Positions 19,801-42,070 of a DNA stretch of 64,000 bases are shown piece by piece. The stretch comes from Scolanthus callimorphus (Eukaryota > Cnidaria > Anthozoa > Actiniaria > Edwardsiidae), in assembly GCA_033964015.1 (NCBI GenBank), contig CM066915.1, positions 14,920,372 to 14,984,371 on the forward strand. Direction: 5' to 3'. Each line of letters opens with the position of its first letter. Within the stretch, counting starts at the first letter, position 1. Under the pieces are notes generated by a model. The model was not told the DNA's origin and ran no database searches. It saw nothing but the letters and a program-made list of their open reading frames with translations. The translations under genes and the position numbers were made by a program.

Positions 19801-20158
19801 TCCTATGATAAACTAAGATATTTCTTAGAACAGTTTAACTTTACCTGTTTCTTCTCGTGCCTTACTGATAAGCATTATACAAACAATTCCGAAGTCAAAT
19901 GTTTTTCTGTAATAGGCTGCGTTTTCAATTTTAGCGGGTTCTTAGACAGATTTGAGACCCGGACTGACTCACCAAGACACACACGTGCGTCATTTTCTCC
20001 ACCAAAATCAGGGAGACCAGTGCAAAACAAACACACAAAAAGGGAGGTCATTAGTAATGTAAATCAGCAGTTTATGGAAGGGGGAACTTAGGTTGGGTCT
20101 TCTAGCGTCACGAAGTGACGGGCTGTTTTCTTGTAATATCTATATTAAAGTCGGAGCC

Positions 20159-22688: not shown

Positions 22689-22767
22689 CCTGTACACCGC
22701 AAACACAGAACCCACAGAGCCTACGATCTAGTACCATGTCCCAGTTACTGGCAGCATAACAGACGAC

Positions 22768-24558
22768 GTGTTTCGCACCACCCCAGAAGACAATCAGCCC
22801 AGCCTGTCCCAGGAAGACAGGAAGTTCATAGAGATCATGGAGGCAGGCGTCCATAAGAATAGTCAGGGAAACTGGGAAATGCCCCTCCCATTCCGAGAAA
22901 AGAACGTTAGCATGCCTAACAACAGAGCCCAGGCTACGCGTCGCCTCAATGGCCTACTGAAGACCCTCCAACGAAAACCTCAAATGAAGAAAGACTACTT
23001 AGAGTTTATGGAGAAGATTATTGTCAAGGGCCACGCCTCTCCTGTACCCCCAGCAGAGATAGAGACGCTACCCGGTGCCGTATGGTTTCTTAGCCATTTT
23101 GGTGTCTATCATCCAAAAAAAAAACAAATCAAATAAGAACGGTTTTCGACTCGTCTGCCGAGTACGAGGCCCTTCTACCCGGCCCAGATCTCGCCAACAG
23201 TCTACTAGGTGTCCTGCTACGCTTCCGGAAGGAGCACGTTGCAGTAATGTGCGACGTGGAACAAATGTTCCACTCATTCCACGTCGATCCCAGGCATCGC
23301 GACTTTCTTCGCTTCCTATGGTATCGAGATAACGACCCCGAAAAGGACATCATAGAATACCGAATGAACGTCCATCTGTTTGGAAATGGCCCAAGCCCCG
23401 CAGTCGCCACGTTTGACCTCAGAAGAACGGCAATCCAAGGAGGGGAGGAGAAGAACAACAGCAAGGTGCAACCATTCGTCTGTCGTAACTTCTACGTTGA
23501 CGACGGACTCATTTCCCTACCAACCGCAAGGGAAGCCGTAGATCTCGTAAGGAAGACTCAAGATACCCTATCTACCTGTAATCTGCGGCTTCACAAGGTC
23601 GCCTCTAATTCTAAAGAAGTAATGGAATCTTTCCCGTACGATGATAGAGCTAAAGATATGCGAGATCTCGACCTTAGCTGCGACAGCCTACCCGCCCAGC
23701 GATCCTTGGGAGTGTACTGGGACCTCGAAAGAGACAGTTTTACTTTCCAAGTTTCGTTGCCAGACAAACCGTTCACGAGAAGAGGAGTGTTATCCATGGT
23801 GATCTCCATCTACGACCCCCTGGGTCTCGCAATACCAGTCATGCTAGAGGGGAGGAAGCTATTAGCCATGGGCAAACAGACAAAGGGAGGCAAGAAGACG
23901 TTAGGCTGGGATGATCCTCTTCCCGACGCAACGATGGAGCGATGGGCGACCTGGAAGGAATCACTTCAATATCTTCCGAGCGTCTCAGTCCCTAGGTGCT
24001 ATAAGCCGCACGACTTCGGCAGCATATCCAGAGCAGAGTTGCACGCCTTCTACGATGCAAGTCAAGATGCGATAGGCACATCCATCTACCTCCGCCTACT
24101 AAACGAGAAAAATGAAGTAAGCGTGTCGTTCGTCTACGGACAAGGAAAGCTCGCACCAATCAATCCGACCAGTATTCCTAGACTGGAGCTATGTGGCGCC
24201 GTGCTCTCCGTACAGGGCGTCCAGAAGGTTATGAAAGAGCTGGATATCAACATCGATCAAGTTACCCACTACACAGATTCAAAGGTAGTGTTAGGCTACA
24301 TAAAAAAACGAGAGCGGGCGGTTCTACGTCTACGTAGCGAACCGCGTGCAGAGCATACGCCACTTATCTAGCCCGGATCAGTGGCGATACGTCCAAACCA
24401 GCGACAACCCAGCCGACCTGGCGACACGAGGAGTACGAGCCAAGGACCTAACGGAGTCAGGGACCAGACTTTCTCCAAACGATCTCCGACTATACCACGC
24501 CGAACGACGTACCATATCCTATCGCACACGACAACCCCGAGGTGAGGAAGGAAGTTAA
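22768..24558 (+). pseudogene. pol: BEL reverse transcriptase and RNase H remnant
   Basis: 22,768-23,136 carries the N-terminal fingers, with LPGAVWFLSHFGVYHP just before an A10 run (23,117-23,126) that shifts the frame. The next frame (open from about 23,130, long ORF 23,247-24,371) holds CDVEQMFHSF (first catalytic Asp region), LFGNGPSPAVATF and the active-site box FYVDDGL (codons 82-88 from 23,247). RNase H follows with LHAFYDASQDAIGTS, PRLELCGAVLS and YTDSKVVLGYI. Another shift near 24,330 leads to the NPADLATRG motif (about 24,407) that ends this domain in BEL elements. Confidence 0.9.
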
Positions 24559-24783
24559 AGTGGCGCGCACCGACGTGCTTAACCGAAGCAAGGAAGGCCT
24601 AGGCACAGATCTTCAAGCTTCTCAAGTCTCACTTCCTTACAGGGCGCAATCGCAGCACTCATCGCAAAGATCAGGGATTTCAAAAGTCGGAAGGAGCGCA
24701 CCATCGTTGATCCTCGTCACAACTCAGCTAGGAAACTTCGTCCGCCCACCGCAGATGAGCTAGCGCAAGCCAAGCAGGTAATC

Positions 24784-25803
24784 TTGCGCGCAGTACAAGA
24801 AGGCAACTCCAAGCACGAGCTCGATATTCTTAAGAGCACGCCACACGACGACGCCGAAGAGCAAACGCGGGAGAGTAAAGAAGCGTTGAAGAAATCACCG
24901 GTCTATCGTTTAGACCCCTTCCTCGACAGTAACGGAGTGATTAGGGTAGGTTGGCGCCTTAGACGCGCAGATATCGACTATGGAGAAATGCACCCTGTGC
25001 TTCTACCTAAATGCCACGTGTCCCAGCTTGTAGTTCGTCACTTCCATCACCACGTCCATCACCAAGAGAGACAAATGACACACGGAGCCGTTCGTCAGGG
25101 AGGGTATTGGATCGTTGGAGGCCACCGAGAAGTTACGAAGGAGCTACACTCATGCATAACTTGCAAGAAGTTGCGCGGACGCCTACAGGAGCAGCGGATG
25201 GCCGACCTTCCAAACGACAGACTAGAGGTAGCACCGCCTTTCTCTAACGTCGGGTTCGACGTGTTCGGGCCGTGGCTAGTCAACGCGCGACAGACAAGGG
25301 GAGGAGCTGCAAATTCCAAGCGTTGGGGGCTGATCCTGACGTGCCTCAGCAGCAGAGCAGTGCACATCGAGCTGCTGGAGTCCATGGACGCCAGTTCTTT
25401 TATATGCGCACTATGTCGCTTCTTCGCTCCTCGAGGTCCTGTCGCCAAGATGCGATGTGATTGCGGGACAAACTTCGTAGGCGGGAAGACGGAGCTCGAC
25501 CTAGCGCTGCAAGAAATGTATCGAGATGGATCGAGATGCAATAGAGAAGTACGTCAGAGAGCAGGGTTGTGAGCGGATCTTCAACCCTCCGCACGCCTCT
25601 CATTTCGGAGGAGTGTGGGAAAGACAAATCGGGACCATCCGCCGCGTATTGGACGCGAAACTGATGGAGTTAGGAGGACCCCGATTGAAGCACGAGCTGC
25701 TCGTAACCCTAATGGCAGAGGTCACAGCTATCGTTAACGGACGTCCAATCGCCGCCATACCAACCGATGTAGAAGATCCGCGCCCATTGACGCCAGCGAT
25801 GTT
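24784..25803 (+). pseudogene. pol: BEL integrase remnant
   Basis: The HHCC zinc-binding domain (residues from HHHVHHQERQMTHG to CITCKKLRG) is followed by the catalytic core: VGFDVFGPW (first Asp), SRAVHIELLESMD and MRCDCGTNFVGG (second Asp). A one-base shift near 25,540 leads to NPPHASHFGGVWERQIG (catalytic Glu) and IVNGRPI. The frame is abruptly replaced by T-rich sequence after LTPAM at 25,803, where the LINE inserted. The missing continuation is found at 43,487. Confidence 0.9.
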
Positions 25804-26119
25804 TTTTTTATTTTTATTTTTTTTATTGACCATTTATCCAACAATTACAGAGTTAAAAGACAGATTACAGCATATATATCCCCCCCCCCCCCCAACAACC
25901 CCTCCCAACAACACATTCCCAGACCACCCTTCTCCCATCCCTATTTAGGCCAGAACTACACACATACAGAGCACAAAAAAACAAAAACCCCACCCACCCC
26001 CTTCCTAACCCTACCCGGCATCCAGTGCACAGAAAAAAAAGCAAAGAAAAAGGAAAGCCACACCCTATACTATGGAAGTTTGGTTCATTGGAGGACACCT
26101 GGTTGTGAATAAGTCGAGC

Positions 26120-28824
26120 CTAGATTTTTTCCCATTTCATGAAATGAAAATTGAGCTTGTCCTTCTCTTTTGCAATTAAAAATTCAATTTTGCATACAGA
26201 TTTGAGTTTACTGAAAAAGGAGTCAATTTGCGGTTGTTGGTCTCTTAATTTGCAAGAAAATATAAAGGATTTTGCAACAAGTATAATGTGATTTAATATA
26301 ATGAAATCCTCATCGTTTTGCTTTGGTACACCCAATATGATATCCAGTTCGCTGAGATTTCTTTGTAAAATGTTTACTTCATGGAGGAAAGTTTCTATAC
26401 GGGACCAGAAAGATTTTACAATCGGACAGGATACGAATAAGTGCTGTATTGTCTCATCTTCGTTTTGGCAGAAGGAGCAGAGCGGAGACTGTACTTTGCC
26501 AATTTTGTACAGTCTGGTATTGGTGAAAATGATTCTATGGAGAATTTTGAACTGAAACTCACGTAGCTTGGTCTCAATAGAGCATTTGAATGGAATACGA
26601 TATATTTCATTCCAATCAAGGGATGATGAAGCAAAGTAGTTATTGTAAAAGAGTTGTGCTGTAGGTGGCTTAATTATATTTGAGAGAAAGAGACTATAAA
26701 CGCTATGTGACATCATGTTATTTAGTACAAACGAACGACCATTCAAATACAAAAAGAATTGAACTGGGTCTAGTGCCAAAACAAGGGATGAAACATTTCC
26801 GGGAAACTCTCTTAATTTGCTTTTCCATCCGGATGGGATTGCCTCCAGGACACTTTTGAGTTGAAAAAGATGTAAAAATTTAAGATTAACATTAAATTTG
26901 CTTCTCAATATCGAGCCTTGTTCCTCAAACAATTGACCAATTTTATAAAAACCACTTTTAAAAAGATCTTGAAAGAAGAATGACTTGTTGTTGATACATA
27001 TAAGCTTATTGTTCCAAATTACTTGATTTGCTATGTCGTCTATAGAATCTATGCAAGGGGCATTCACCTCAGACCACGCCTCTAAGCATTCTTTGTAAAA
27101 AAAAGGGAAATTATTTTCCAGATTGAGTTTTGAGACGTCAAAATTGCATTGAAAGAGGAAGCTTCCTCCCAAATTTCTAAGGTGGTGCAAAAATATAACC
27201 TTCCAAAAAGAATTAGGTTCCTATAAGAATTTCTTGATACACATTATTCTTTGCGATTTTATCATAGACAAGATGTCCGGCATTCTAAGCCCACCTTCCT
27301 CTAGATTACTAATCATCGACACCCTTTTAACCTTATCTTTCCCATTCCACAAAAAATCGTACAAAAGGCTATTCACTTTTTTTATAAAGTCATTTTCACA
27401 AGGAAAGACAGATAGGGTATACAAAATTTTAGGGACTATAAAGGTTTTAATTATTTGAACTTTACCTATGAGAGTCAACCCCCTCCATTTCCAATTCTTA
27501 AATTTCTGTTTCATGAAATCTATTACTGCGTCCTGATTAAGCTCTTTGGAAATACGACTGTTATATGTAAAGTGAAGACCCAAAATTTTGACAGTAGACT
27601 TAATCTCTTTAACCTTTAGTTCCTCAGCTGTTATTTTAAAAGACCCCAAACAAAAGACTTCTGTTTTATCGCCATTTATCTTTAAACCCGAGAATTGCCT
27701 AAACAACTCTAAAGTTGACATGAAGCAGAAAAAAGATTCTTTGTCTCTGAGAAAAGCAGACATATCATCCGCAAACGATAGAACTTTAATTTCTTGGTTC
27801 TGGACGAATATACCCTTAATATTCGGGTTATCACGGACATTAATGGATAATAGTTCCAGCGCTATAATAAAGAGAAAGGACGAAAGGGGATCTCCTTGAC
27901 GGACTCCGGAAAGTACATTAAAAAACGGTGTAGAGAAGCCATTATTGGTAACACAGCTGATTATATTCGTGTAAAACATACAGACCCACGAAATGAATGA
28001 GTCACCAAAGTCAAACTTGTGCAGCGCTTGGAACAAAAATTTACGATTAGGAGAGTCAAAAGCTTTTTCGAAGTCCACGGTTGTCAAAAGGGCGTCAACT
28101 TTATTTGTCTTGGTATAATAAAGTAAGTCATCTATTGATCTGACTGTATCGAAAATTGTTCTCCCTTTGACGTAAGCATTTTGATTGTGGTGAATTATGT
28201 GCGGAAGTACTTTTTCTAGCCTTTTTGCGATACACTTTGATCCTATCTTAACATCAACATTAATTAATGATATAGGTCTCCAATTTTTCGTGTGCCTCCT
28301 GTCCTTGCCTTTCTTTTCGATTAAAACTATTATAGCCTGTTTCTGCGATGTGCTTAGCTCACCATTGCGATAACAAAAATTAAGGCATTCAACTAACATT
28401 TTACTAAAGGTTGACCAAAAAGTCTTATAAAATTCGACCGTGAGCCCATCGCTACCTGGAGATTTATTATTTTGAAAAGAGGATAAGATATTAAAGCATT
28501 CTACAGGAGATAGCTCTCCTTCGCATGTCGTTTTCAATGAATCCGTGAGCTTTGGGGTTTGAGGGGAGGTTAGAAAAGGACAACACAAGTCATCGATATC
28601 ATCCTTGCATTTTTCACTATATAAATCTGCATAAAAAGAGTGCAATTCGTCCATTATTGTTTTGGGGTTCGACGTAATTTTCCCATCTGATTTGTATACT
28701 TTTCTTATCACGCTTTTCTTTTTCCTAGAGTTTTCCAAATTCAAAAAATACGAGTTATTTTTTTCTCCTTTCTCATACCAATTTACTTTCGATCTAATAA
28801 TTGCTCCTTCGGTAATGTAATTAT
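26120..28824 (-). pseudogene. LINE ORF2, reverse transcriptase and C-terminal part
   Basis: From 28,824 down, the frame has the fingers (KNWRPISLINVDVKI), the palm (TVDFEKAFDS), GVRQGDPLSS and the catalytic FADD box (VLSFADDMSAF), then the thumb and the zf-RVT cluster (CSFCQNEDETIQHLFVSC). A single in-frame TAG at 27,221-27,223 interrupts it. Reading continues in the same frame from 27,220 to the TAA/TGA at 26,120. The upstream part of ORF2 resumes beyond the Gypsy insertion at 40,998. The L1/Tx1 group is suggested by the order endonuclease-RT-zf-RVT and by the type of ORF1. Confidence 0.9.
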
Positions 28825-29546
28825 TGTCATGAAAGATATTTAGCCTTATTTTGATCAACTCCTGAATACCCTCATGATGGTCTCTTTTAGTTAACTTCTA
28901 TTGAATTCGCACATCAGAGTTACAGCTGAGAGTTATTCCCGAATTATTGCCTAGTCATTTCTAGCCTCGTAGCCACGCTAACCTTTTGCTGAGTCATTCT
29001 GGTGCGCGAGTCACTTCACGTTTGGCCATGCGCGAGTTTAATAATTCTTACGCCAGATTATGTTACTTTCAATTAAGTCTTACAACAGATTAATTTGGTC
29101 AACTTATCAAAAAGGACGCTATCGCTCCTACTCGTAAATAATTCTGTCTTTCATATTCGGAACATTCGGTTTGTTGAATTACACCTCTTAGCTATGAATA
29201 TCCGATGTGCCCTTTGAATTGATCGAGTTTCCACTGAGTTATTCTCGAAAGGATTTCCTGGCAAACATAATTATTCTGAAGTAATCTTTATTAACTTAGA
29301 CCAGAACAAAGGACGCGCTGAATCGACAAGTTTTAGTACACAAAGAATTGTATAGGAATCACTGAAGATAAAAAGCCATGTAATGATTGAGAACGAACAG
29401 TGGTAATAGAGTTAACAACGGAGTTGAAGAAGTTGGTTGTTAAAGAGTCGAACAGAGGGAAGATCGAATCAAGTGGAATAAACATCTTTGACCAGTACTT
29501 GGAGTCTGTGGTTGCTATCCGTTAATTGTCAAAAACCCCTTTGACA
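28825..29546 (+). repeat. Gypsy 5' LTR
   Basis: 722 bp, TG...CA. Read against 40,271-40,993 it is identical except for four instead of five C bases near the 3' end (29,536-29,539). It should contain the promoter. No clear TATA box stands out. Confidence 0.95.
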
Positions 29547-29946
29547 ATCTGGTGGAGAATCCCGTGGCTCGTTCCTGTCAAGCCGGACCATTGTAAGGTA
29601 TCCATTACGCTCACGCTTCACTCGCTAAATGCACTTGCTCGGCTTTCTAATTAATCGCTAATACCTTTGTCTATTTCTTATTTACTCTCTTAACGTAATA
29701 ATGCGATCAAATTGTTGAACTTTAGAGACCTCTCAGGGAAGTCTAATTAGTTTATCCCTAGTTGAATTTATAAAATCATAAATTGATTAGTTTCACCTTG
29801 TTTCGTGCATCATAAGTTTTCAAACTGAATTTACGAAGCGGCAAAACCGTGGATCCATCACAGCCTAACTGTACATCGTGTGGGAATCACTTAACCAACC
29901 ATTCTAAAACCAAAATATCCCAAAAGCTAACAAAACTACCAACACC
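29547..29946 (+). promoter_or_regulatory. Gypsy leader with candidate primer-binding site
   Basis: Four bases past the LTR comes TGGTGGAGAATCCCGTGG (29,550-29,567), which starts with the TGG expected of a tRNA-primed site. I cannot name the tRNA. AAGGTATCC near 29,597 is a possible splice donor for the downstream ORFs. The rest of the 400-nt leader contains nothing I recognise. Confidence 0.5.
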
Positions 29947-31110
29947 ATGGGTGAAAAAGATAGCGACGCTACAGCACAAATTTCTGAAGCTCTAGATAAT
30001 GCGCTTAAAGACTTTTCAATTCGTCTGGAACAATCAACCACATCTCAAGCTGCACAAATTGCAGCCATAGAAAAAACTTTAGCTTCTAAAACTTCGCATG
30101 AGACAGATACGCCTTCAGGATTTCCAAAGATGCCTACATTTTCAGGTCACGGAGAAGACCCTGTTCAGTTTTTACATCGATTTGATATGTATGCAAAATA
30201 TAATAAATGGACCGCTGATAAATGCCTAGATGTATTTCCTATAATTTTGAGCGGCAACGCTCTTATCTGGTTTTCATCAGTGCAGCCGCCAGTCGGATCT
30301 TTTGCAGAGTTACGTCAACTCTTTTTAACTCAGTTTAATTCATCCTCTAGTGAGTGGGTTTTGCGCCAGGAATTAGCAAACAAAACACAGCGCATAGGCG
30401 AATCAGTAACTTCTTACGCAAGCGAACTCAGACAAAGATGTCAACGTCTTAAGGTTCCAGCGGCGGAATGTGTACATAAATTTGTGCAAGGACTCATACC
30501 AGAAATTCGTTCTCATGTTTTGCTACAACAACCCAAAACTATAGAAGAAGCCGAACATTTGGCTCGCCTAAAGGAATCAGTTTTATTAGCGCAACCTCAG
30601 CTTACGGGTGCTCAGATTTCTGCCATTCAAGAGGGCCTTATACAGAAACTAAAATCGGCTCAACTAATAGTTTCACAAACCACTCCAATAGCAGCTATAG
30701 ATACTTCCTCGCGCCCTCCTACAAATTTTTCTCAACAAAATGATACACGATTCAATAACAACAACAATTACTCGCGGAATCATAACCAGGAAGCGCCAGC
30801 TACTGAATCGGACGTCCTTCGCATTGTAAGACAGGAATTAAGACACCAGAATTTTAACCCACAAGGCCGTCGTTTCAACGGTCACCAAAATCAGGGGAGA
30901 CCACGTTTTAACGCACAGGGTAATTTTGGTCGTAATCTACGCACTAATACAGGGGATATTATCTGTGCAAATTGCATGCGCGTAGGTCACCATGCCTCTA
31001 CTTGTCGCTCAGCTAGAAACTATTCAGAAAACCGTTTTCCTCGTAACAATTCATCTAACCAACCTAGGGCTTTTCCAGCTCGCACATTCCAACATCCGCA
31101 GGGAAACTAA
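29947..31110 (+). CDS. gag: Gypsy Gag polyprotein, intact
   Basis: The 387-codon frame encodes the structural protein that packages element RNA. Codons about 60-215 match the retrotransposon Gag capsid family (Retrotrans_gag): FSGHGEDPVQFLHRF, LSGNALIWFSS, FNSSSSEWVLRQEL and FVQGLIPEIRSHV. An Asn- and Gln-rich low-complexity linker follows, then a single CCHC zinc knuckle, CANCMRVGHHASTC (about codons 339-352). The start ATG has an ACACC-ATGG context, close to a Kozak consensus. The stop TAA at 31,108 directly follows the heptamer GGGAAAC, so a fraction of ribosomes could slip into the pol frame. Confidence 0.93.
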   Translation: MGEKDSDATAQISEALDNALKDFSIRLEQSTTSQAAQIAAIEKTLASKTSHETDTPSGFPKMPTFSGHGEDPVQFLHRFDMYAKYNKWTADKCLDVFPIILSGNALIWFSSVQPPVGSFAELRQLFLTQFNSSSSEWVLRQELANKTQRIGESVTSYASELRQRCQRLKVPAAECVHKFVQGLIPEIRSHVLLQQPKTIEEAEHLARLKESVLLAQPQLTGAQISAIQEGLIQKLKSAQLIVSQTTPIAAIDTSSRPPTNFSQQNDTRFNNNNNYSRNHNQEAPATESDVLRIVRQELRHQNFNPQGRRFNGHQNQGRPRFNAQGNFGRNLRTNTGDIICANCMRVGHHASTCRSARNYSENRFPRNNSSNQPRAFPARTFQHPQGN

Positions 31111-31143
31111 ATTCGACCTTCCAAGCCGGAAATTGGACAGGTC
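31101..31143 (+). promoter_or_regulatory. Candidate -1 ribosomal frameshift site (gag-pol)
   Basis: G GGA AAC sits in the gag frame at 31,101-31,107 and is followed at once by TAA. A slip of -1 gives GGG AAA C, and that frame is open from 31,068 with no stop until 35,666. Before 31,068 the -1 frame is closed by three stops (31,044, 31,056, 31,065). Seven nt downstream a hairpin can form: GACC (31,115-31,118) with GGTC (31,140-31,143) and TTCC with GGAA, loop AAGCC. Slippery heptamer, spacer and hairpin match the known layout of retroviral -1 signals. Confidence 0.8.
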
Positions 31144-34100
31144 AAAGGGATAATTTACAAAATGATCAACCACACAATGAAACTCAACTGTCGGAACGCT
31201 GTAATTTACCAAACCAAACTAAAACTGCGCAATTTCGCGATCACATTAAAGAACAACGAAAAAACAAAAAGAAACATCGCGCAATCGAGCATAATTCTTT
31301 TTCCCCAAAACCGGTTATTTCCAATCCAGGAAAAACACCGCAAGCTATTCCTACGTGGAGTAAACCTTCTCAATCACCTATTGTAGATATGAAACCAATA
31401 CCAAGTACTTCTTTTTCATCGCCTGTTGTTCCGGAACAGGTACCTAGTAATTTAAACGAAGAACCGTATACACCAGTTTTCGCTAACGCATTAGCTTCAG
31501 ACTTTAAAATTTTTAAGGGAGCATCCATTTCTGTTTTGGAAGAAAATTCCAACGCGCGCATTAGAACTAATTCTATCGAACACACAACAAAGGACATTCC
31601 GAATACGACTTTAGTTAACTCTTCGTACCCTTTCTTCATTCCGCAAGCTAATGACTCTGCTCTTAAGGCACCGCCATCGGAGGCGGACAAAAACACAGTT
31701 CACACATCCATTCAGGATGACATAATTAGTCCAAGGCAATGTTCTCGCAGTCAGACTCTCAACAAAAGCGCAAAAGTCGGCTCATCACGGTCATATATAA
31801 AATTTTGTAAAGCGGATGCCGCTGCATCGGCAAGCGGCAACTCTAAAGAACTTTGCACAATAGACGCGGTGTATGAGTACGGTAGTCCAGGGCCAGAGCG
31901 AATCACTCCTGCACTGGACTCCGCGCCGTGTACACCTCGCTCGCTCGCAGGTAAGCTTCGGTCCAAAGTTTCCAAACTTTTCTCTCGAGTTTTTCATCGA
32001 ACTAATTTGAACCGTATTCATCCGCATTGTAGCACTCAAACTTCAAACAATTTTCAAGAACACGCTGGGACATCACTTCATTCTCCAAATCAAGGTAAAA
32101 CAGTGTTTGTTAGCGATTTTTCCGAGAACATTGCTGATACTTCATGGACTGATAGCGACTTGTTGGCTTCTTCTGTTGTAGTTCCCTCGCAAATTGATAA
32201 CATCACAAATCCGTTAGAAATATCGTCTCAAAATTGTAGTGTTTCTAGCTCAATTGCGAGCTCATTTTTGTCACATCTTGAATGCGAATTTGAAGAGCAT
32301 GACACTGAGCCTACCTCTGCTTCCAGCGAGAGTTCTGCTGTGGTAACAGGCACTTGCACGAACGCATGTATTGTAGCTCAAACAAGTTCAAAACCAACTA
32401 AAAGCTTATTGCTTAATTCGGGAAAGTTTTGCGCAACCACGGAGAGAACTACAAAACCAGAAGCCAGTATTTCCGCGCATTTTCCTTCGGATTTAGATTC
32501 GCTCAGTTTGGAAATTTCTAATAATAGTCTCACGGTAGTAGGATTTATTGATAAGACGCAAGTTTCCTTTCTTGTTGATACCGGAGCAGCAGTTTCAGTC
32601 GTTAGTGAAGCTCTTTCCAAGCAAAATCCGATACTTTCTAAGTATCCGCCGGCGCCTACGAATTTATCTTCGCTTCGCTCCGTTAGTGGACAGCGCCTTC
32701 CAGTTTTAGGAAAAGTTATTGTTTCTCTAACATTGAGTGACCAGGAATATTGTTTTCCAATGCATTTAGTAAAGGATATTTCACATCCCATAATTCTAGG
32801 CCGCGATTTTCTAGTACATTTCGGTGCAATTATTAATCTCAATGATTTTAACCTGGATTTTGTCGGAGAAGCAGCACGCCCGTCAACTAGTCAACCGTCG
32901 CCGCCAAAAGTTTTGAAACGCCACGCAGATAATTCAACGAGTACTATTACAGCTTATACATCTGTTGTTTTGCCTCCGCGTAGTGAGTCTATAATTTTGG
33001 GATGCTTATCTGATACTAATTGTAGGAATCGCGAAGGGATTATAGAACCTAATTGTGACTTAACATCGAAATATAGTGTTTGTGGAGCTAATATTTTGGC
33101 TTCAAGTACCGATGAGGGTCTGGTACCTATTCGTCTTTTGAACCCATTAGCTCAATCTGTTAAATTAATGGAAGGAACTCATGTAGGACTTTTTACAACT
33201 TCAGAAGAGCCTTTTGTAGCCGTTACCTTAGGTGATACTAGTGAATCTAATTCTTCGGATGCAGTGAAAACGTCGCCAAACGATAGCGCTTCTCTTCATG
33301 TTGATTTGTCTCACGCGGATTTAGAAACACAACAAAAACAGGAATTAACGAACCTTTTGGGAGAGTTCAATGATATTTTTGCATTAAAGGACACTGATTT
33401 AGGACTCACCAATAGGGTGGAACATGTGATTGACACAGGCAGCGCTCAGCCAATCAGATTGCGACCTTATAGGGTAGTCGGCCAAAAGCGAGATCTCATA
33501 GACAAACACGTGAAAGAAATGTTAGATAATGATATTATCGAACCAAGTGTTTCGCCTTGGTCCTCCCCAATCGTAATTATTCCGAAAAAATCGTCAGGTG
33601 AGTGGCGCTTTTGTTGTGATTTTCGCAAGCTTAATTTTGTCACAATCAAGCAACAACAGCCATTGCCAGTTATATCACTAGCATTAGATTGTTTGGGAGG
33701 ATCGCAATATTTTTCAATAATGGACCTTAGGTCAGGATTTTGGCAAGTTAAGATGGATGACGCTAGCAAAGAAAAGACTGCTTTTATTACCTATGGGGGT
33801 CTGTACCAGTTTAAGAGAATGCCTTTTGGGTTATGCAACGCTCCGTCGACGTTTCAGCGACTCATGGAAAATGTTTTACAGTCCCTAAACTATAAAACTA
33901 CGCTCTGTTACTTGGATGACATTATCGTATTTTCCAAAAATTTCGAGCAACATCTTAAGGACCTTCGCGAAGTTTTCAGTCGCCTTAGAGACGCTAACAT
34001 CAAGTTAAAACCTAGCAAATGTACTTTTGCAGCGAACCAAGTAGAATACTTAGGTCACATAATAACTAGAAACGGTATCTTACCAAATCCAGAAAAAATA

Positions 34101-35666
34101 ACAGCTGTATCAGAATTTCCAGTTCCTACAAAACTCAAGGGAGTTCGCAGTTTTCTGGGGCTTGCAAATTACTATCGACGTTTCATTAAAGATTACGCCA
34201 AAATCGCTCGTCCTTTAAATCAATTAACTCAAAAGGATACTCCTTTTCTATGGACAGAAGAATGCCAAAAAGCTTTTGACACGCTAAAACAAACATTAGT
34301 TAGCGCGCCAATTCTTGCTTATCCAGATTTTACACAGCCTTTTGTTGTTCATGTTGACGCTAGTAACACAGGATTAGGATTTGTCTTAGCACAAATACAA
34401 GACGGCAAGGAAGTAGCCATAGCCTACGGTGGAAAAAATCTGAATAAAGCTCAGGAATCATATTCGGCCACCGAGAAAGAATGTCTAGCTGTAGTAGAAG
34501 CCATTAAGAAATTTCAACCATATTTACAAGATCGTAAATTCACATTGTATACCGATCATCATGCCTTACAATGGCTTATGAACATTAAGAATCCAAATGG
34601 GAAGCTCGCTAGGTGGGCCCTTTTACTTCAACACTTTGATTTTAACATAGTACATAGGCCAGGAACTAAAAATTCCAATGCGGATGGTTTATCTCGTAGA
34701 TCCTATGCTCCGCTTAACGCTCTCACAGAAGACGGTCAAAATATAAGTCGTGTTTTAGATCTTCAAAGCAAAGATCCTAAATTACTTCCCATGATTCAAT
34801 ATTTACGGGATGATATTTTACCCCCTAAGGAGGAAGAGGCACATAAGATTTTAATCGAGTCTGACCATTATTTTCTTGACGAACATGGGTTGCTTTTTCA
34901 TTTATGGATACCGCCAGGGAACAAACGCACTGACCCACATCCTCAGTTAGTCGTACCAAAACCTTTGCAACATGAAATTTTGGTTGCTCTCCATGATAGT
35001 CCGCTTTCTGGTCACATGGGTGTTAGCCGCACATATCAAAAAGTTCGCTCACAATACTTTTGGAAAGGACTTTTTCAAGACTGCGAAGCCTGGGTACGAT
35101 CTTGTGTAGATTGCGAAACAAAGAAAATGCCAAAACATCTCGGCAAAGCTCCTATGCTAAGCATCCCTATTTCCAAAAGTTTTGACAGAATTGGAATTGA
35201 TATTCTAGGACCTTACCCCCCGACTAAGTCCGGGAACCGCTATATTATTACGGCCACTGATTATCTCACAAAATACGTAGAAGTTGCAGCTTTATCAACC
35301 ACAGATGCGCCCACAGTAGCACGATTCATATTCGAAGAAATTGTTTGTCGTCATGGTTGCCCTAGGGTTATCTTAAGCGATCGCGCTCAGAATTTTATGG
35401 GTCGTGTTGTAAAATGTCTTTGTCAGCTTATCAATAGCAAAAAGCATAATACAAGTAGCTATCACCCGCAAACAAATGGGTTAACCGAACGTTTTAATGC
35501 AGTGCTCGCGCATTCTCTTTCAATGTTCGTAAATGCGCAACAAACCGATTGGGATTTATATCTTCAAGGTGTAGTTTTCGGACACCGTACTTCCATTCAA
35601 AGTTCAACACAGTTTTCGCCATTTTTATGCTGTACGGAAGGCACGCGACATTGCCACCAGACGTAG
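31104..35666 (+). CDS. pol: Gypsy Pol: protease, RT, RNase H, integrase (frameshifted at end)
   Basis: Entered by -1 slippage at 31,104 (first internal ATG at 31,389). A Ser/Thr-rich region of nearly 500 codons with no recognised domain precedes the protease (FLVDTGAAVSVVS, about 32,570; ILGRDFL at about 32,798). The RT has KKSSGEWRFCCDFRKLN, MPFGLCNAPSTFQRLM and catalytic YLDDI (33,909). RNase H has VHVDASNTGLGFVLA, ATEKECLAVV and YTDHHAL. Integrase has the HHCC finger (HDSPLSGHMGVSRTYQKV...CVDCETKK), then IGIDILGPY, LSDRAQNF and TNGLTERFN, the DDE residues. One base is missing in the T run at 35,622-35,626, so this frame ends early at 35,666. Confidence 0.93.
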   Translation, partial: KLNSTFQAGNWTGQRDNLQNDQPHNETQLSERCNLPNQTKTAQFRDHIKEQRKNKKKHRAIEHNSFSPKPVISNPGKTPQAIPTWSKPSQSPIVDMKPIPSTSFSSPVVPEQVPSNLNEEPYTPVFANALASDFKIFKGASISVLEENSNARIRTNSIEHTTKDIPNTTLVNSSYPFFIPQANDSALKAPPSEADKNTVHTSIQDDIISPRQCSRSQTLNKSAKVGSSRSYIKFCKADAAASASGNSKELCTIDAVYEYGSPGPERITPALDSAPCTPRSLAGKLRSKVSKLFSRVFHRTNLNRIHPHCSTQTSNNFQEHAGTSLHSPNQGKTVFVSDFSENIADTSWTDSDLLASSVVVPSQIDNITNPLEISSQNCSVSSSIASSFLSHLECEFEEHDTEPTSASSESSAVVTGTCTNACIVAQTSSKPTKSLLLNSGKFCATTERTTKPEASISAHFPSDLDSLSLEISNNSLTVVGFIDKTQVSFLVDTGAAVSVVSEALSKQNPILSKYPPAPTNLSSLRSVSGQRLPVLGKVIVSLTLSDQEYCFPMHLVKDISHPIILGRDFLVHFGAIINLNDFNLDFVGEAARPSTSQPSPPKVLKRHADNSTSTITAYTSVVLPPRSESIILGCLSDTNCRNREGIIEPNCDLTSKYSVCGANILASSTDEGLVPIRLLNPLAQSVKLMEGTHVGLFTTSEEPFVAVTLGDTSESNSSDAVKTSPNDSASLHVDLSHADLETQQKQELTNLLGEFNDIFALKDTDLGLTNRVEHVIDTGSAQPIRLRPYRVVGQKRDLIDKHVKEMLDNDIIEPSVSPWSSPIVIIPKKSSGEWRFCCDFRKLNFVTIKQQQPLPVISLALDCLGGSQYFSIMDLRSGFWQVKMDDASKEKTAFITYGGLYQFKRMPFGLCNAPSTFQRLMENVLQSLNYKTTLCYLDDIIVFSKNFEQHLKDLREVFSRLRDANIKLKPSKCTFAANQVEYLGHIITRNGILPNPEKITAVSEFPVPTKLKGVRSFLGLANYYRRFIKDYAKIARPLNQLTQKDTPFLWTEECQKAFDTLKQTLVSAPILAYPDFTQPFVVHVDASNTGLGFVLAQIQDGKEVAIAYGGKNLNKAQESYSATEKECLAVVEAIKKFQPYLQDRKFTLYTDHHALQWLMNIKNPNGKLARWALLLQHFDFNIVHRPGTKNSNADGLSRRSYAPLNALTEDGQNISRVLDLQSKDPKLLPMIQYLRDDILPPKEEEAHKILIESDHYFLDEHGLLFHLWIPPGNKRTDPHPQLVVPKPLQHEILVALHDSPLSGHMGVSRTYQKVRSQYFWKGLFQDCEAWVRSCVDCETKKMPKHLGKAPMLSIPISKSFDRIGIDILGPYPPTKSGNRYIITATDYLTKYVEVAALSTTDAPTVARFIFEEIVCRHGCPRVILSDRAQNFMGRVVKCLCQLINSKKHNTSSYHPQTNGLTERFNAVLAHSLSMFVNAQQTDWDLYLQGVVFGHRTSIQSSTQFSPFLCCTEGTRHCHQT

Positions 35667-36517
35667 CTCTTCTCCCGCCTTCTAATGCTACAAAATCAAT
35701 CGAAGAACACCGCAAGCGGATAATTCGAAACATAGAATGGGCACAAAAAGTTGCTAAGGAAAATATAAGCCGCGCGCAACATCAGATGAAAGAATATCAT
35801 GATCGCAAAGCTAAGGCTCCGTCTTATGAAGTAGGAGATCAAGTATGGGTTTATACGCCAACACCTAAACCAGGACTAAGTAAGAAACTAAGACATCTTT
35901 GGAATGGACCTTATCTAATTACAGAACAACTTTCGGAAGTTCATTACGTTTTGCGTACTTACGATAATAGGCAAGTATCAGCAGTTATTCACGCAAATAG
36001 ACTCAAGCCCTATTATGACCCTAGGAATCGTCCTTTCCACCCGCCGACAGAACTGCACGCAACAGACTGCGGTGATCTTTTTGAATCAGACTTCCCGGCA
36101 GATGCATTTGAACCGGCTGCGCCCAAGCCACGTACAGCTACCAATAGCAACGCCTTAGTTACTAATAGGGATACAATAACGCGCCCTGCTCAAAACAAAG
36201 CAAATATATCTGGGAACATAGACGAAACCAGGAAGTTTACATTTGAACAAAGCGCAGGAAATAAACAGCCAAACCAAAATAACTTACTTTCCTCAAACGG
36301 AATTGATAGAAATAAGCAAACTAGTGACATTTTTCTAGCAGAACGCGTATTAGATCATAAAATCAAAGGAGGAAAGATTTATTATAAAGTCAAATGGTTA
36401 AATTTTGATGTAAAAGATGCAACCTGGGAGCCTAAGGAAAATTTGCTCGATCCTCAATTGCTACAAAATTATGACCCACCTCAAAAGAAAGGTCGGCGAA
36501 CGGCTCGAGTCGTTTAA
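35627..36517 (+). CDS. pol: Gypsy Pol C-terminus: integrase tail and chromodomain
   Basis: Directly continues the integrase in another frame (long frame opens at 35,549). It starts FMLYGRHATLPPDV, then has the helical stretch before the GPY/F module (HLWNGPYLITEQLS), a long acidic and Asn-rich linker, and a C-terminal chromodomain (AERVLDHKIKGGKIYYKVKW...DATWEPKENLL, about codons 264-308 of the 322-codon frame). Chromodomains on integrases bind histone marks and steer insertion in chromoviruses. The aromatic cage positions (Y in IYYKVKW, the two W) look present. Ends TAA at 36,515. Confidence 0.92.
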   Translation: MLYGRHATLPPDVALLPPSNATKSIEEHRKRIIRNIEWAQKVAKENISRAQHQMKEYHDRKAKAPSYEVGDQVWVYTPTPKPGLSKKLRHLWNGPYLITEQLSEVHYVLRTYDNRQVSAVIHANRLKPYYDPRNRPFHPPTELHATDCGDLFESDFPADAFEPAAPKPRTATNSNALVTNRDTITRPAQNKANISGNIDETRKFTFEQSAGNKQPNQNNLLSSNGIDRNKQTSDIFLAERVLDHKIKGGKIYYKVKWLNFDVKDATWEPKENLLDPQLLQNYDPPQKKGRRTARVV

Positions 36518-36816
36518 CTAATTTCAAAACAAGCACCTTATATTTTCAAGCCGTTGATGTTGTTCTTATACTCATAAATTAGGATAAATAAAATAAAAAA
36601 CAAAAGCTCTGTTTTATATCATGTCATACTCGACAGGAGACGAGTGCCTGCAGGCAGGTTTTTCACTTTCCACACAGTCCTATGTTCGCCGGAGCCTAGG
36701 GCCCAGGCCCCGCGCGGAACGACACATGTTATAAACATGTTGAGATAACAACAACGTCAACAGCTCTATATATTTTCAAAACTATTCTCATGAAACACGT
36801 TTTCATTTTTCAGATC
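36518..36816 (+). other. Pol to ORF-X spacer
   Basis: About 300 bp without a domain. It contains AATAAAATAAAAAA (36,586-36,599), a possible early polyadenylation signal, and ends in the pyrimidine tract TTTTCATTTTTCAG just before the next ATG. Confidence 0.55.
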
Positions 36817-37335
36817 ATGAATACCGAGGGTCAGTCGAAAGTTTTCTCGCAGGACCTTCCTTTAAGTTCAACGCTCATAGATTTCAATAATGCTTTTCTA
36901 CACGCTACTTCGTCTGACTTATATGCACCTATACTAATCAATAATCTTAAGGCCATAAGTCCTCGTGTTTCGGAAGCCATGGCTGAAGCACACGACAAAC
37001 ATAACTGCTTAGTATGCAAGCAATCGCATACGCCATATGTTATTTGTATTCCCGCTGTATTTCCAGACGTAGCCATTTTAGGAACGGCAGACCTTATAAA
37101 TAATAGGCTACCCACGTTTACTGATGAAAGAGAACACCTTCTCTTGATACCGCTTTTCAATTTTTTAGGAATTTCTGAAGAATGGGTCGCTCAACAATTC
37201 AGCGATCCATCAGAAGTCACGGAAAACATCAATTTCAACAACTTTATTTACATTCTCGCGTACTTTGGATATTCTTGCCTCGCAGCTCGATACAGTGACG
37301 CAGCATTACAAAACGCAAATGTATTACACGCCTAA
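36817..37335 (+). CDS. Gypsy ORF-X, novel protein of 172 aa
   Basis: I do not recognise this protein. The frame opens at ATG 36,790, but a splice-acceptor-like TTTCATTTTTCAG ends at 36,813, so ATG 36,817 (start MNTEGQSKVF) is the likelier start, giving 172 aa. It is soluble-looking with no signal peptide. It has one Cys/His cluster (HNCLVCKQSH) and hydrophobic segments near the C-terminus (LLLIPLFNFLG and FIYILAYFGYSCLAA), which could be buried helices. It is intact and has the same AT-rich codon use as gag and pol, so it is probably an old part of the element. By position it resembles retroviral accessory genes placed between pol and env. Confidence 0.7.
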   Translation: MNTEGQSKVFSQDLPLSSTLIDFNNAFLHATSSDLYAPILINNLKAISPRVSEAMAEAHDKHNCLVCKQSHTPYVICIPAVFPDVAILGTADLINNRLPTFTDEREHLLLIPLFNFLGISEEWVAQQFSDPSEVTENINFNNFIYILAYFGYSCLAARYSDAALQNANVLHA

Positions 37336-37376
37336 CGGACAATTTTCCTTCATTTCAGAAAAATAACAGTTTAGCT

Positions 37377-39428
37377 ATGATATTGCTAACGCTTCTAACC
37401 CTCGCTTCCAGCGCTATCGGGTTTCAGGCCTCTTTGAATCTAGATTCCACAGGCAAACCGGTTACATTTTACCCATCAGCTTTAATGGTTGCTCGTAACC
37501 CTAGACCTTTAGTGTTTTATGAAGATACCGAAATAGTGAATTTGGTTTTAAAACTACACATTCCTCCGCTAGGACATCAATCAGTTATAAAGACAAATTG
37601 TTCGCCGCAACAACAGCAATTTATGGATAAACGTTTAGCCACAATGCATCATACTAACTCGGTCGTGCACAAATTGCTCTCGTTACCAGGATTTTCTCGT
37701 CTTATTGATTGTTATACAGTACTAAGGAGAACTTACACATTAGAAACTCGTCTCGAATCCAAAATGGTTTGTCCTCGCGTGTACAAAAGTTCAATGCATA
37801 AATGCGCGCATTGGGCGTTAACATTCTGTAACAATATTGAACCCAACGAAAAACTTTGGTTACAAAGCCAACAAAAAATACGCACAAAATCTCGCAAAAG
37901 GCGCACTTCATTTCTCTGTCACAGCGGAATATTTGGCATCCTAAGGGCTGTGTATCGTGCAGCAGGGGGATCGTGCACATCTTCTCAAGTGGTTAACTTA
38001 AAAAAGACGTTGAATTCTTTCACAAATGTAATGCGTAATGAACAATTCCTCATTCGCGCAGTACAAGGAAAAACAGTTTTTCTATTCAAACTAACGGATC
38101 AAATTACAACTAAAGTTAATCACATTTCTCATAATCTAAAAGCGTTAGATTCTACTCTTCAATCATGGAAACAACTAATTAATCAATTCGCAAAGAAAGA
38201 ACAATGTCACTTCAATTCGGCAATGGAATTTCTTTCACAGTTTTCCTTTGAAACCAACAAAGTTTTTGCGTCAATGTTACGCCTTATCGAAATTCAGGAT
38301 ACGGTTAATCAGATTTCCCGTCTCGAAAATAAGGAACTGGTTGGTTTAGAAGATTTACTTCATTTTGTTCTTAGTGCTTTAAAACGTCGGTTGTCAACAC
38401 AACCACAGCTTGCGCTTACTATGAATGCATTGAAACAAGGTTTTCCTTTACTTATAAACCCATTAACAGAATTTCATCATAACTCTGGTCGGTCTCTGAG
38501 TATCAATATTTTGATGACGATTCCTAAAATTTCCAGCAATTCTGCTATTTGTACAGTTGAATTTCTCACTCCAGTCAAATATCAAGTGAAAAATGCTTGC
38601 TATTCAGGACCTCTTACACGCGATGAACTAGTGCTTATAACTTGTCCTCATTCTAAAGCTATTATAACCGCTGATACTCTAACCAAATGCTACTCGCATA
38701 ACAGTTACTTATGCCCTGCAAATGTGCTAACGCTTGTGAAGTCGCTTGAGTGGCTCGGGTTACCATGGTCACCTGGTAGTGCCTTGACATTTCCACGCAA
38801 CCACAAGTCGACTTCCTGTGAGCATCTCGACTCCATCATTCATCTTGGTGGACGCTTCTACTTGTCTACTAAACAACAGCAACTCCAATTGGGAAACACT
38901 AGTTTATCTCTCGCTTCACTAGCAGTATACAATATTCCATGTAATCTTACGTCTGAACAACTGGAAATTGGACTTGGGCCTTGTCCCACCAGCCTACAGT
39001 TGGACTTACCTCTGTTCTCAACCAACAAAATTACTTATGTTCCATGGGTGGCACCTTCAGATTCAGAAACGCTAAAGCTTCATTACGATTCATTGGACAT
39101 TTCACCTCCAATATCATTTAACAAGTCTACGATGGAAGAACTCGATCGTACCTTTCAGCATATCGATGGTCACGTGACATCGGAACTAACACAACTTAAA
39201 AAGCAAATCTCAACAATCCATGAAGTATCCAGTACTACAATTAATGATGTTATGACGTATATTGCATTCGCCTTGGCTATTGTACACTCAATAATATTGA
39301 TTACGGTCGCACGTTGGATGGCTAATGGTGTTCGCGCTCGTCGCCAGAACGCACCTCCGCCTGAAGATGTGCCTCTTCACCAGTGTGATCAATGCCAAGA
39401 ACAAAACATTGATATTCCTCAAAATTAA
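37377..39428 (+). CDS. env: Env-like glycoprotein, class I (F-type) appearance
   Basis: 683 codons, intact. Residues 1-16 form a signal peptide (MILLTLLTLASSAIGF). A basic furin-type site RKRR lies at 173-176, followed by a hydrophobic, Gly-containing segment (GIFGILRAVYRAAGG) that could be a fusion peptide. Heptad-like stretches follow (about 225-330). Many Cys and N-glycosylation sequons (N-T-S, N-L-T) occur in the second half. One membrane helix (about 626-645) leaves a 38-aa tail with CDQC. Precursor cleavage followed at once by a hydrophobic segment, and a single C-terminal anchor, are the layout of errantivirus and baculovirus F-type proteins. I infer a membrane-fusion envelope but cannot name its family by sequence. 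A pyrimidine-AG acceptor (CCTTCATTTCAG) ends 18 nt before the ATG. Confidence 0.82.
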   Translation: MILLTLLTLASSAIGFQASLNLDSTGKPVTFYPSALMVARNPRPLVFYEDTEIVNLVLKLHIPPLGHQSVIKTNCSPQQQQFMDKRLATMHHTNSVVHKLLSLPGFSRLIDCYTVLRRTYTLETRLESKMVCPRVYKSSMHKCAHWALTFCNNIEPNEKLWLQSQQKIRTKSRKRRTSFLCHSGIFGILRAVYRAAGGSCTSSQVVNLKKTLNSFTNVMRNEQFLIRAVQGKTVFLFKLTDQITTKVNHISHNLKALDSTLQSWKQLINQFAKKEQCHFNSAMEFLSQFSFETNKVFASMLRLIEIQDTVNQISRLENKELVGLEDLLHFVLSALKRRLSTQPQLALTMNALKQGFPLLINPLTEFHHNSGRSLSINILMTIPKISSNSAICTVEFLTPVKYQVKNACYSGPLTRDELVLITCPHSKAIITADTLTKCYSHNSYLCPANVLTLVKSLEWLGLPWSPGSALTFPRNHKSTSCEHLDSIIHLGGRFYLSTKQQQLQLGNTSLSLASLAVYNIPCNLTSEQLEIGLGPCPTSLQLDLPLFSTNKITYVPWVAPSDSETLKLHYDSLDISPPISFNKSTMEELDRTFQHIDGHVTSELTQLKKQISTIHEVSSTTINDVMTYIAFALAIVHSIILITVARWMANGVRARRQNAPPPEDVPLHQCDQCQEQNIDIPQN

Positions 39429-39454
39429 TTGTCACTTCTATCACTCCTTAGACA

Positions 39455-39913
39455 ATGGATTGTGTCATTTGTTTGGAAAATACCGCTGCCAAACTTCCGT
39501 GTTGTAGGCAAGGTTGCCACGAGGAGTGTCTTCGCCTGTGGTTCGACATGAGAACGCACAATGTGTGCCCTCACTGCAGGGCCACTATCATCCCCATCTC
39601 CGCCAACAACGTACTGGCACGGGTACATTTCATGGTGTTCAACGATGTACCCGCGCCATTCCACCCGGTGTTCCATGGAGACGCCGTCGCACCGGAACTG
39701 GGCAACCCGCCCCACTATAATCATCTGCACGTCCGCCTTCCGCGCCATGCTCAAGTAGAAGAATGGGCATGGTGGCTTAGGCATGCGGAGGCGGAATACG
39801 AGCGAAATCAAGGACAGCAACAACAACCGCCGCCACAGCCACATAATCAACACATACCACCAGAAGGATGGCATGACGCAATGGAGGCGATTCGACGACA
39901 ATTGAACAATTGA
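39455..39913 (+). CDS. RING-finger protein carried by the Gypsy element
   Basis: 152 aa, intact. The N-terminal 42 residues are a RING finger: C3-x2-C6, Cys at 16/17, C21-H22, C25 and C38-x2-C41 (MDCVICLENTAAKL; then CHEECLRLWF and VCPHCR), with the CL..W motif typical of E2-binding RINGs. The rest is unrecognised, with a Gln/Pro-rich patch (QQQQPPPQPHNQH) near the C-terminus. Family knowledge implies E3 ubiquitin-ligase activity. The target is unknown. CTATCACTCCTTAG ends 3 nt before the ATG and looks like a splice acceptor. The ORF is visibly richer in G+C and in CGC/GCC-type codons than env, ORF-X and gag beside it, which points to capture from a different source. Confidence 0.85.
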   Translation: MDCVICLENTAAKLPCCRQGCHEECLRLWFDMRTHNVCPHCRATIIPISANNVLARVHFMVFNDVPAPFHPVFHGDAVAPELGNPPHYNHLHVRLPRHAQVEEWAWWLRHAEAEYERNQGQQQQPPPQPHNQHIPPEGWHDAMEAIRRQLNN

Positions 39914-40270
39914 ACATTTGCACAACCTTTTATATTTAGTCTCTTAGTGTACATAGCAACATAGTTAAAAAAAAAAAAAATACAAAATACAAAATACAAA
40001 AAGATCAAGCTTTTAAGCTACGCAATTATCCTATTTTTCGAATAAAATTACCAGCTTTTATATCGCACCGCATTTCGCCTTTGCCATTTCATTATTAAGA
40101 CATTTATAGCAAGAAAATAACACAGAAAACAAACAAAAAAAAGGGTTACAATTTCATATTTAACTTTTATATACAGTTTCGCTTACTTTTCAAGCAATTT
40201 CGATTTTCTACTTCACATCAGAACAATACAACTGGTCCTCGATGGAACTCGAACTTAACGTGGGGGAGAT
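39914..40270 (+). other. Gypsy 3' untranslated region and polypurine tract
   Basis: AT-rich, with an A13 run at 39,967-39,979 and CGAATAAAATTA at 40,038. It ends GTGGGGGAGAT (40,260-40,270) directly before the LTR, a good polypurine tract for plus-strand priming. No further ORF. Confidence 0.75.
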
Positions 40271-40993
40271 TGTCATGAAAGATATTTAGCCTTATTTTGA
40301 TCAACTCCTGAATACCCTCATGATGGTCTCTTTTAGTTAACTTCTATTGAATTCGCACATCAGAGTTACAGCTGAGAGTTATTCCCGAATTATTGCCTAG
40401 TCATTTCTAGCCTCGTAGCCACGCTAACCTTTTGCTGAGTCATTCTGGTGCGCGAGTCACTTCACGTTTGGCCATGCGCGAGTTTAATAATTCTTACGCC
40501 AGATTATGTTACTTTCAATTAAGTCTTACAACAGATTAATTTGGTCAACTTATCAAAAAGGACGCTATCGCTCCTACTCGTAAATAATTCTGTCTTTCAT
40601 ATTCGGAACATTCGGTTTGTTGAATTACACCTCTTAGCTATGAATATCCGATGTGCCCTTTGAATTGATCGAGTTTCCACTGAGTTATTCTCGAAAGGAT
40701 TTCCTGGCAAACATAATTATTCTGAAGTAATCTTTATTAACTTAGACCAGAACAAAGGACGCGCTGAATCGACAAGTTTTAGTACACAAAGAATTGTATA
40801 GGAATCACTGAAGATAAAAAGCCATGTAATGATTGAGAACGAACAGTGGTAATAGAGTTAACAACGGAGTTGAAGAAGTTGGTTGTTAAAGAGTCGAACA
40901 GAGGGAAGATCGAATCAAGTGGAATAAACATCTTTGACCAGTACTTGGAGTCTGTGGTTGCTATCCGTTAATTGTCAAAAACCCCCTTTGACA
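40271..40993 (+). repeat. Gypsy 3' LTR
   Basis: 723 bp, identical to the 5' LTR apart from one extra C (40,981-40,987 region). Followed by the TTAT target duplication at 40,994 and then by LINE sequence that resumes in frame. Confidence 0.95.
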
Positions 40994-40997
40994 TTAT

Positions 40998-42070
40998 ATT
41001 CGTTTTCATAATCGAGTTTGAGAGAATTTAACTCTCTAAGGACTTTTTCAGAAGGGTTCTCTGCGCATAATTCTTCTGCCTTTTTTATGTTTTGTTCTAC
41101 AGTTTTGAGTGAATCACGTCGATTCTTGGCTTTAGCTTTGCTATACTTTATCGTTTCGATTCTGATTTTATATTTGAGCCAGTCCCACCGAACTCTAATA
41201 TCTTCTGTGTAATTTACTTCATTAAGCCAATCTGAGTGCTCGCTTTTAATCATTTCTAGGTATTGATTGTCGTCACATAAACTATTATTAAATTTCCAAT
41301 AGGATGAGCCCCGTACAGTTTCGTCGATACTATTAAAATCTAGAGTTATCGCAGAATGGTCAGTTCTTATTGCTGTTTTGATAGAAGCGTCTTCGACATC
41401 TTCCTGTAGAGAGTCGCTAATAAGGAAAAAATCTAATCTTCACTGGATAAGAGGCTTGTTTTGCCGCCATGTGAAACGTTTTTGATCCGGATTTCTAAGT
41501 CTCCAAATGTCAATTAAATCATTGTCGAACATAATTTTTTCCACCCACTTAACTGACTTCTTTTGTGATCGCGCAGGAGGGCTGCAATCGATATCCGATT
41601 CAAACGTTATGTTCCAGTCACCACCAATTAAGAAAGAAACATCTTCCGAGAACTCGAGTGAATCTAAAATGCCGGCAATAGACTGAAAAAAACTGCATTG
41701 TTCTTGAACTTTATCAGGCGCGTAAAGGTTCATCAGAAAGAAAATGGAATCTTGAAGAAGTACTTCTAATAAGACGTACCTTCCCGACGTATCCAGTTGT
41801 GCAGACTTGACCACGATGTCTAAATCATCCCTGACAAGAATAAGAGTTCCTCTACTCTGATTTGTACCGTGAGCAAAATACACATCTCCGCTCCAATCCT
41901 TTCTCCATTGATTCTCCTTCTCTTTTGTGGAGTGCGTTTCTTGTAAAAAGAAGATCGAGGCCTTTTGTTTTTTCAGCCAACTAAAAACTGTTTTCCGTTT
42001 TTTTGTTTTCACACAAACCGCGACAATTGAGAGAGAGGACAGCGAACTGGATATTATTTTGTTGCGCCAT
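40998..42070 (-). pseudogene. LINE ORF2, endonuclease part
   Basis: On the minus strand ORF2 starts at ATG 42,070 with the apurinic-endonuclease opening VLSLNCRGL. It shifts frame in an A run near 42,000 and continues with FFLQETHS (catalytic Glu), YAPDKVQEQ and LIGGDWNITFESDID (the GGDWN box). An in-frame TGA at 41,440-41,442 separates RQNKPLIQ from RLDFFLISD. The linker to RT runs to 40,998 (LDYENEYN), where the Gypsy insertion falls. Reading then resumes at 28,824 in the same frame. Confidence 0.88.

Follow-up and report, generated by a model that had tools for sequence, protein, structure and literature searches.

Env-carrying Ty3/Gypsy elements have been reported across metazoans, in cnidarians, ctenophores and tunicates (PMC12859917, PMC13172572, PMC12992720). 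The element described here, at positions 28825-40993 of a 64,000-nucleotide stretch of Scolanthus callimorphus DNA (the window; 14920372-14984371 on its contig), resembles these metazoan elements in joining a Ty3/Gypsy gag-pol to an envelope gene (Chary and Hayashi, eLife 2025 RP108449). The first-pass annotation of the window rightly stated that Env-bearing Gypsy elements are known in animals; cnidarians are among the reported hosts (PMC12859917). The available portions of PMC12859917, PMC13172572 and PMC12992720 mention neither a RING gene nor the open reading frame (ORF) that we call ORF4, which does not imply their absence from those elements. Insect endogenous retroviruses (ERVs) splice their env and encode an F-type Env with a signal peptide, furin site, fusion peptide, conserved cysteines and transmembrane segment, according to the accessible part of PMC12992720. 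Drosophila errantiviruses and insect ERVs (gypsy, ZAM) likewise hold gag-pol-env between long terminal repeats (LTRs), whereas the window element differs by a chromodomain, two further genes and an Env outside the named Pfam families. TelKA of bdelloid rotifers is an LTR element whose Env has been likened to paramyxovirus class-I F proteins; it possesses a dUTPase, and the text seen of its description places a chromodomain in no bdelloid lineage and never mentions a RING (PMC5408684), whereas the window element has both. Chromoviruses likewise end their integrase with a GPY/F module and a chromodomain, and are distinguished from the window element by its env and accessory genes. Complex retroviruses use splicing to express additional small genes, some of which work through recruited host ubiquitin ligases, and vertebrate retroviruses carry accessory genes that fight host defence; the window element would instead encode a RING ligase itself. 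Among the open-licence papers listed by literature searches, none was seen to report a RING gene in an LTR retroelement.

We consider it probable, at roughly two in three, that the element is a recent insertion of an env-carrying, chromodomain-bearing Ty3/Gypsy lineage which gained two accessory genes, ORF4 and a RING-finger gene, beside env, and which would express them in the manner of complex retroviruses and encode its own RING E3 ubiquitin ligase. ORF4, Env and RING all lie inside the LTR pair, between pol and the 3′ LTR, as first annotated. The genome (597 Mb) was searched for further copies, and 19 stretches were read around ORF4 matches, giving 20 ORF4-bearing rows with the window; a gene was counted as present whether its frame was open or broken. 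ORF4, Env and RING occur in this order in 13 of the 20 rows, across four divergent families (5/8 in family A, which includes the window, 6/6 in B, 1/3 in C, 0/2 in D and 1/1 in E). The Env proteins of families B, C and E are only about 45-55% identical to that of the window, and the rows without the full trio include the fragments L010, L014, L015, L016 and L023. Both LTRs were found in three of the four near copies examined beyond the window, with 7/735, 4/694 and 11/719 substitutions between the paired LTRs and target site duplications (TSDs) of CCTT, ATAA and ACAT; L012 has no 5′ LTR at the expected place. The trio therefore stands between pol and the 3′ LTR in independent insertions, as each of three family-A copies is bounded by an LTR pair and a 4-bp TSD of its own, and the window insertion is the youngest of the four LTR-paired copies because its own pair has no substitution. 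In an Env tree of 37 rows, from which seven loci were left out as too short, a single clade of 24 (support 100/100) contains every one of the 16 rows that carry ORF4 or RING; the other 13 rows comprise four database proteins and nine loci with neither gene. Recurrence of the trio in distantly related elements suggests that the extra genes do real work for the element.

The RING gene itself is under purifying selection and is exchanged between element copies, so that this Ty3/Gypsy lineage carries, beside env, a gene that is conserved, selected and moved between elements. Family A holds two RING alleles, one shared by the window and L012 (99%) and the other by L009, L011 and L013. At the DNA level the two types are 51-81% identical over 39428-39838, 93-100% at the end of Env, and 75-100%, with gaps, over the last part of the RING gene and the 3′ untranslated part. 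Window RING compared with L009, L011 and L013 gives a proportion of synonymous differences (pS) of 0.78-0.84 and of non-synonymous differences (pN) of 0.15-0.17, where synonymous divergence (dS) in Env is only 0.03-0.04. The combination of high pS, low pN and better-conserved flanks indicates that the gene was swapped between diverged elements while its protein remained constrained. Mosaicism is also seen beyond RING, as the integrase-end/chromodomain region stands at 82-85% in L009 and L011 versus 94-96% in L010, L012 and L013.

The borders of the element are fixed by its host site, since joining the host flanks alone closes a single long interspersed nuclear element (LINE) frame of 681 codons across the insertion. 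The TG..CA termini and TSD (TTAT) agree with those of Ty3/Gypsy elements (Metaviridae), for which TSDs of 4-6 bp are expected. The LTRs, first described as identical, indeed show no substitution, but differ in length by a single inserted base.

Table 1. Features of the element and its insertion site, in window coordinates
Feature	Position	Strand	Basis or remark
Target site duplication TTAT	left 28821..28824, right 40994-40997		
LINE reverse transcriptase part, split by the Gypsy element	27221..28820	-	endonuclease part 41440-42012
5′ LTR, 722 nt, TGTCA..TGACA	28825..29546	+	
Primer-binding-site-like TGG.. stretch, 3 nt past 5′ LTR	29550..29567	+	read from sequence
gag: capsid domain and CCHC knuckle	29947..31110	+	Pfam Retrotrans_gag 2.8e-11; CCHC motif
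pol open frame: protease, reverse transcriptase (YLDD), RNase H, integrase HHCC and core	31068..35666	+	Pfam RVT_1 2.1e-37
G GGA AAC heptamer, candidate -1 frameshift site	31101..31107	+	directly before gag stop
Integrase C-terminus (GPY/F) and chromodomain, frame differs from core	35498..36517	+	Pfam Chromo 9.8e-15
ORF4	36817..37335	+	probable start 36817; frame's first ATG 36790
Env-like glycoprotein, 683 aa	37377..39428	+	open frame between pol and 3′ LTR
RING-finger protein, 152 aa, PPHY motif at residue 85	39455..39913	+	
Polypurine-tract-like GTGGGGGAGAT	40260..40270	+	read from sequence
3′ LTR, 723 nt, TGTCA..TGACA	40271..40993	+	

The gag, pol and chromodomain of the first-pass annotation were all recovered by Pfam domains. 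The protease is a weak Pfam match (5.5e-4) with a DTGA motif. Membership of Ty3/Gypsy is indicated by the order protease, reverse transcriptase, RNase H, integrase and by a reverse transcriptase closest to Ty3; the best PDB match of Pol is Ty3 Gag-Pol (2.8e-117), followed by an 'Enzymatic polyprotein' (2e-58), with retroviral pol at 9.4e-37 or weaker. RNase H Pfam models match at one place only, where the feature looked for was the paired arrangement of Retroviridae, a tether and a new RNase H. The chromodomain lies behind the integrase GPY/F module, as in chromoviruses. The end of gag and the pol open frame overlap by 43 nt, with pol in the -1 frame and the heptamer inside the overlap, which makes it a probable -1 frameshift site; predicted RNA folding downstream of it is no better than that of shuffled sequence (z 0.07).

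The Env gene occupies the position seen in errantiviruses, between pol and the 3′ LTR. Its product features a signal-like N-terminus, an RKRR site at residues 173-176, a fusion-peptide-like stretch, long helices and a transmembrane segment at about 626-644. In the Pfam search no family names it; its architecture and PDB fold matches agree with an F-type class-I protein. It looks like a viral fusion glycoprotein, probably of class I, on a structure model of low confidence. Across the genome, 367 candidates, 65 of them scored, gave 68 Env matches. Among 20 further Env loci that were read, two have RING sequence past Env, namely L032, where the Pfam matches stay under the cut-off, and L034, a family-A fragment; L033 carries RING elsewhere (below), and the other 17 have none in the stretch read. 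Four Env matches at G000:C13:16217976-16252981 follow each other in steps of about 11.1 kb, one within a 2426-codon open frame, and possibly represent a tandem array or elements whose Pol and Env share a single frame. Seven loci (L036-L039, L041, L042, L045) match Env only from about residue 147-180 on, and L040 from 63; no chromodomain, ORF4 or RING was found in the stretches read around these eight copies.

The RING profile scores 9.4e-6 (26.3 bits) in the window protein, one bit below the Pfam cut-off, which its relatives exceed. Frame length alone is weak evidence here because shuffling 36518-40270 produced a 153-codon open frame in 40 of 2000 trials (against 2/2000 for 211 codons); the gene is accepted as real on the profile, its recurrence in independent insertions and the selection upon it. 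In an alignment of 11 rows, the cross-brace zinc ligands expected of a RING ubiquitin ligase (E3) are present, with C3, I5, C6, C16, C17, H22, C25, C38 and C41 invariant, W29 and R42 nearly so, and ligand 4 not canonical; the I, W and R are presumably residues that contact the ubiquitin-conjugating enzyme (E2). All five family-A RING rows have a PPxY motif (PPHY or PPQY), which was not seen in the family-B row L018. A run of A at 39967-39980, about 50 nt past the RING stop, might reflect past capture of the gene from a messenger RNA. At L033:3711-4262 (-) a RING ORF (zf-RING_2 28.7 bits, cut-off 27.3) lies between chromodomain and Env rather than behind Env. A second RING piece at L022:149-265 (-), 77% like the window type and about 1.5 kb past the RING gene (family B) in that stretch, is possibly the remnant of another element.

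ORF4 most plausibly begins at 36817 rather than 36790: the near copy L011 lacks the upstream start, and an acceptor-like TTTTTCAG at 36806-36813 precedes the downstream one. ORF4 has 24 matches in the genome; besides the window, seven places match at 85-99% identity and twelve at 25-37%. Within family A, pS is 0.025-0.064 and pN 0.005-0.014 (six pairs), and on these few changes ORF4 is under purifying selection. A different ORF lies behind Env in four of five loci looked at among the nine outside the accessory clade, one of the four being shortened. Where it stands directly behind Env, at L043:3899-4459 (+), L050:954-1511 (-) and L047:3775-4068 (+), it encodes about 187 aa in L043 and L050 and 98 aa in L047, with no convincing Pfam match. 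By eye both this ORF and ORF4 look BTB/POZ-like and strongly diverged; Pfam and PDB searches do not support the likeness, and profile comparison of the two (hhalign) reaches only E 0.011 with a probability of 3.8%.

Pyrimidine-rich AG dinucleotides lie 3, 18 and 3 nt upstream of the ORF4, Env and RING starts, where acceptor-like sites end at 36813, 37358 and 39451. By an ad hoc acceptor score among 177 ATGs, ORF4 ranks 10th, Env 4th, RING 5th and gag 146th. Acceptor-like sites precede the starts in other families too (scores 15.9-20.1 for ORF4 in families B-E, 17.3-19.7 for Env, checked in B and D, and 14.4-17.4 for RING in B, C and E), taking the ATG behind the acceptor where several were possible. 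The position of these sites is kept across families while their letters differ, and this persistence is a better argument for splicing than the ranks within the window. We infer from these sites that ORF4, Env and RING would be expressed from spliced subgenomic RNAs.

Taken together, these features point to a candidate life cycle. Gag-Pol would be made by -1 frameshifting, and ORF4, Env and RING would each be translated from its own spliced RNA. A cleaved, probably class-I (F-type) Env may allow particles to pass between cells, and the chromodomain may steer integration toward marked chromatin. The RING protein, as a putative E3, could remove or re-target a host factor, or help release. The cell exit and host ubiquitin modification proposed at first pass would draw on the F-like Env and the RING domain; the binding target of the RING protein would be a testable clue to the obstacles such elements face in host cells. 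An arms race with the host is a proposed reason for swapping the RING gene as a cassette. A bolder version, which we regard as rather unlikely, combines complex-retrovirus-like expression with the element's own ubiquitin-ligase kit, in which ORF4 is the partner or substrate adaptor of the cassette-swapped E3. If this is true, and ORF4 and the other ORF behind Env are diverged BTB/POZ-type adaptors, separate lines of these elements would each have their own way of targeting host ubiquitination.

Several observations weigh against a lineage defined by working accessory genes. The expectation that other copies keep the three ORFs is borne out by copies of families A, B, C and E but fails in family D, whose two loci have ORF4 and Env without RING, and ORF4 is found in 0/20 further Env loci. 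Eight rows of the 24-row Env clade lack both genes in the stretch read, and several trio-bearing copies carry broken genes, as in L009, with a truncated RING frame of 127 aa, and in L020 and L021, which have no open RING start. An ATG inside pol ranks 8th by the acceptor score, and the viral library matches of Env are led by chu-related glycoproteins. The first-pass description of all genes as intact holds for the open frames of ORF4, Env and RING, but in this copy the integrase is split over two frames, the shift falling near 35.6 kb, after its catalytic core and before the GPY/F-chromodomain. Core and GPY/F-chromodomain share one frame in 12/15 divergent rows and in five of the six near rows, the exception being the window, so the break is private to the window copy rather than a family trait. 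Family D, the RING frames of L009, L020 and L021 and the Env loci lacking both genes (nine outside the clade and the eight within) would fit an ordinary env-carrying Gypsy in which Env matters and ORF4 and RING are chance passengers, useless to the element. Passengers would be expected to decay, however, whereas RING shows selection, with saturated synonymous and few non-synonymous changes; the trio also recurs in four families and the acceptor-like sites stay in place. We therefore find this explanation strained, and improbable.

It is similarly doubtful that ORF4 and RING act intracellularly in an element with no extracellular phase, Env being a relic or serving cell-to-cell contact only. 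Envelope-free spread is reported for some Drosophila elements, in the part of PMC11952523 available, but here Env is kept, with dS 0.03-0.04 versus a non-synonymous divergence (dN) of 0.007-0.014 in family A, and, among the 68 Env matches, more than 25 sit in stop-free open frames of at least 600 codons. That the RING ORF arose by chance, as the shuffles might allow, or a host gene fragment transduced once, is refuted in our judgement by its invariant zinc residues, its constrained change and its recurrence behind Env in L032 and in four families (A, B, C and E).

Elsewhere in the window, 20000-26000 holds a frame-broken BEL/Pao-like element (Peptidase_A17 7.1e-41, a zinc knuckle and a weak integrase) of raised GC content in which A strongly outnumbers T, and 59890-60846 encodes a protein kinase-like ORF (Pkinase 7.3e-16).
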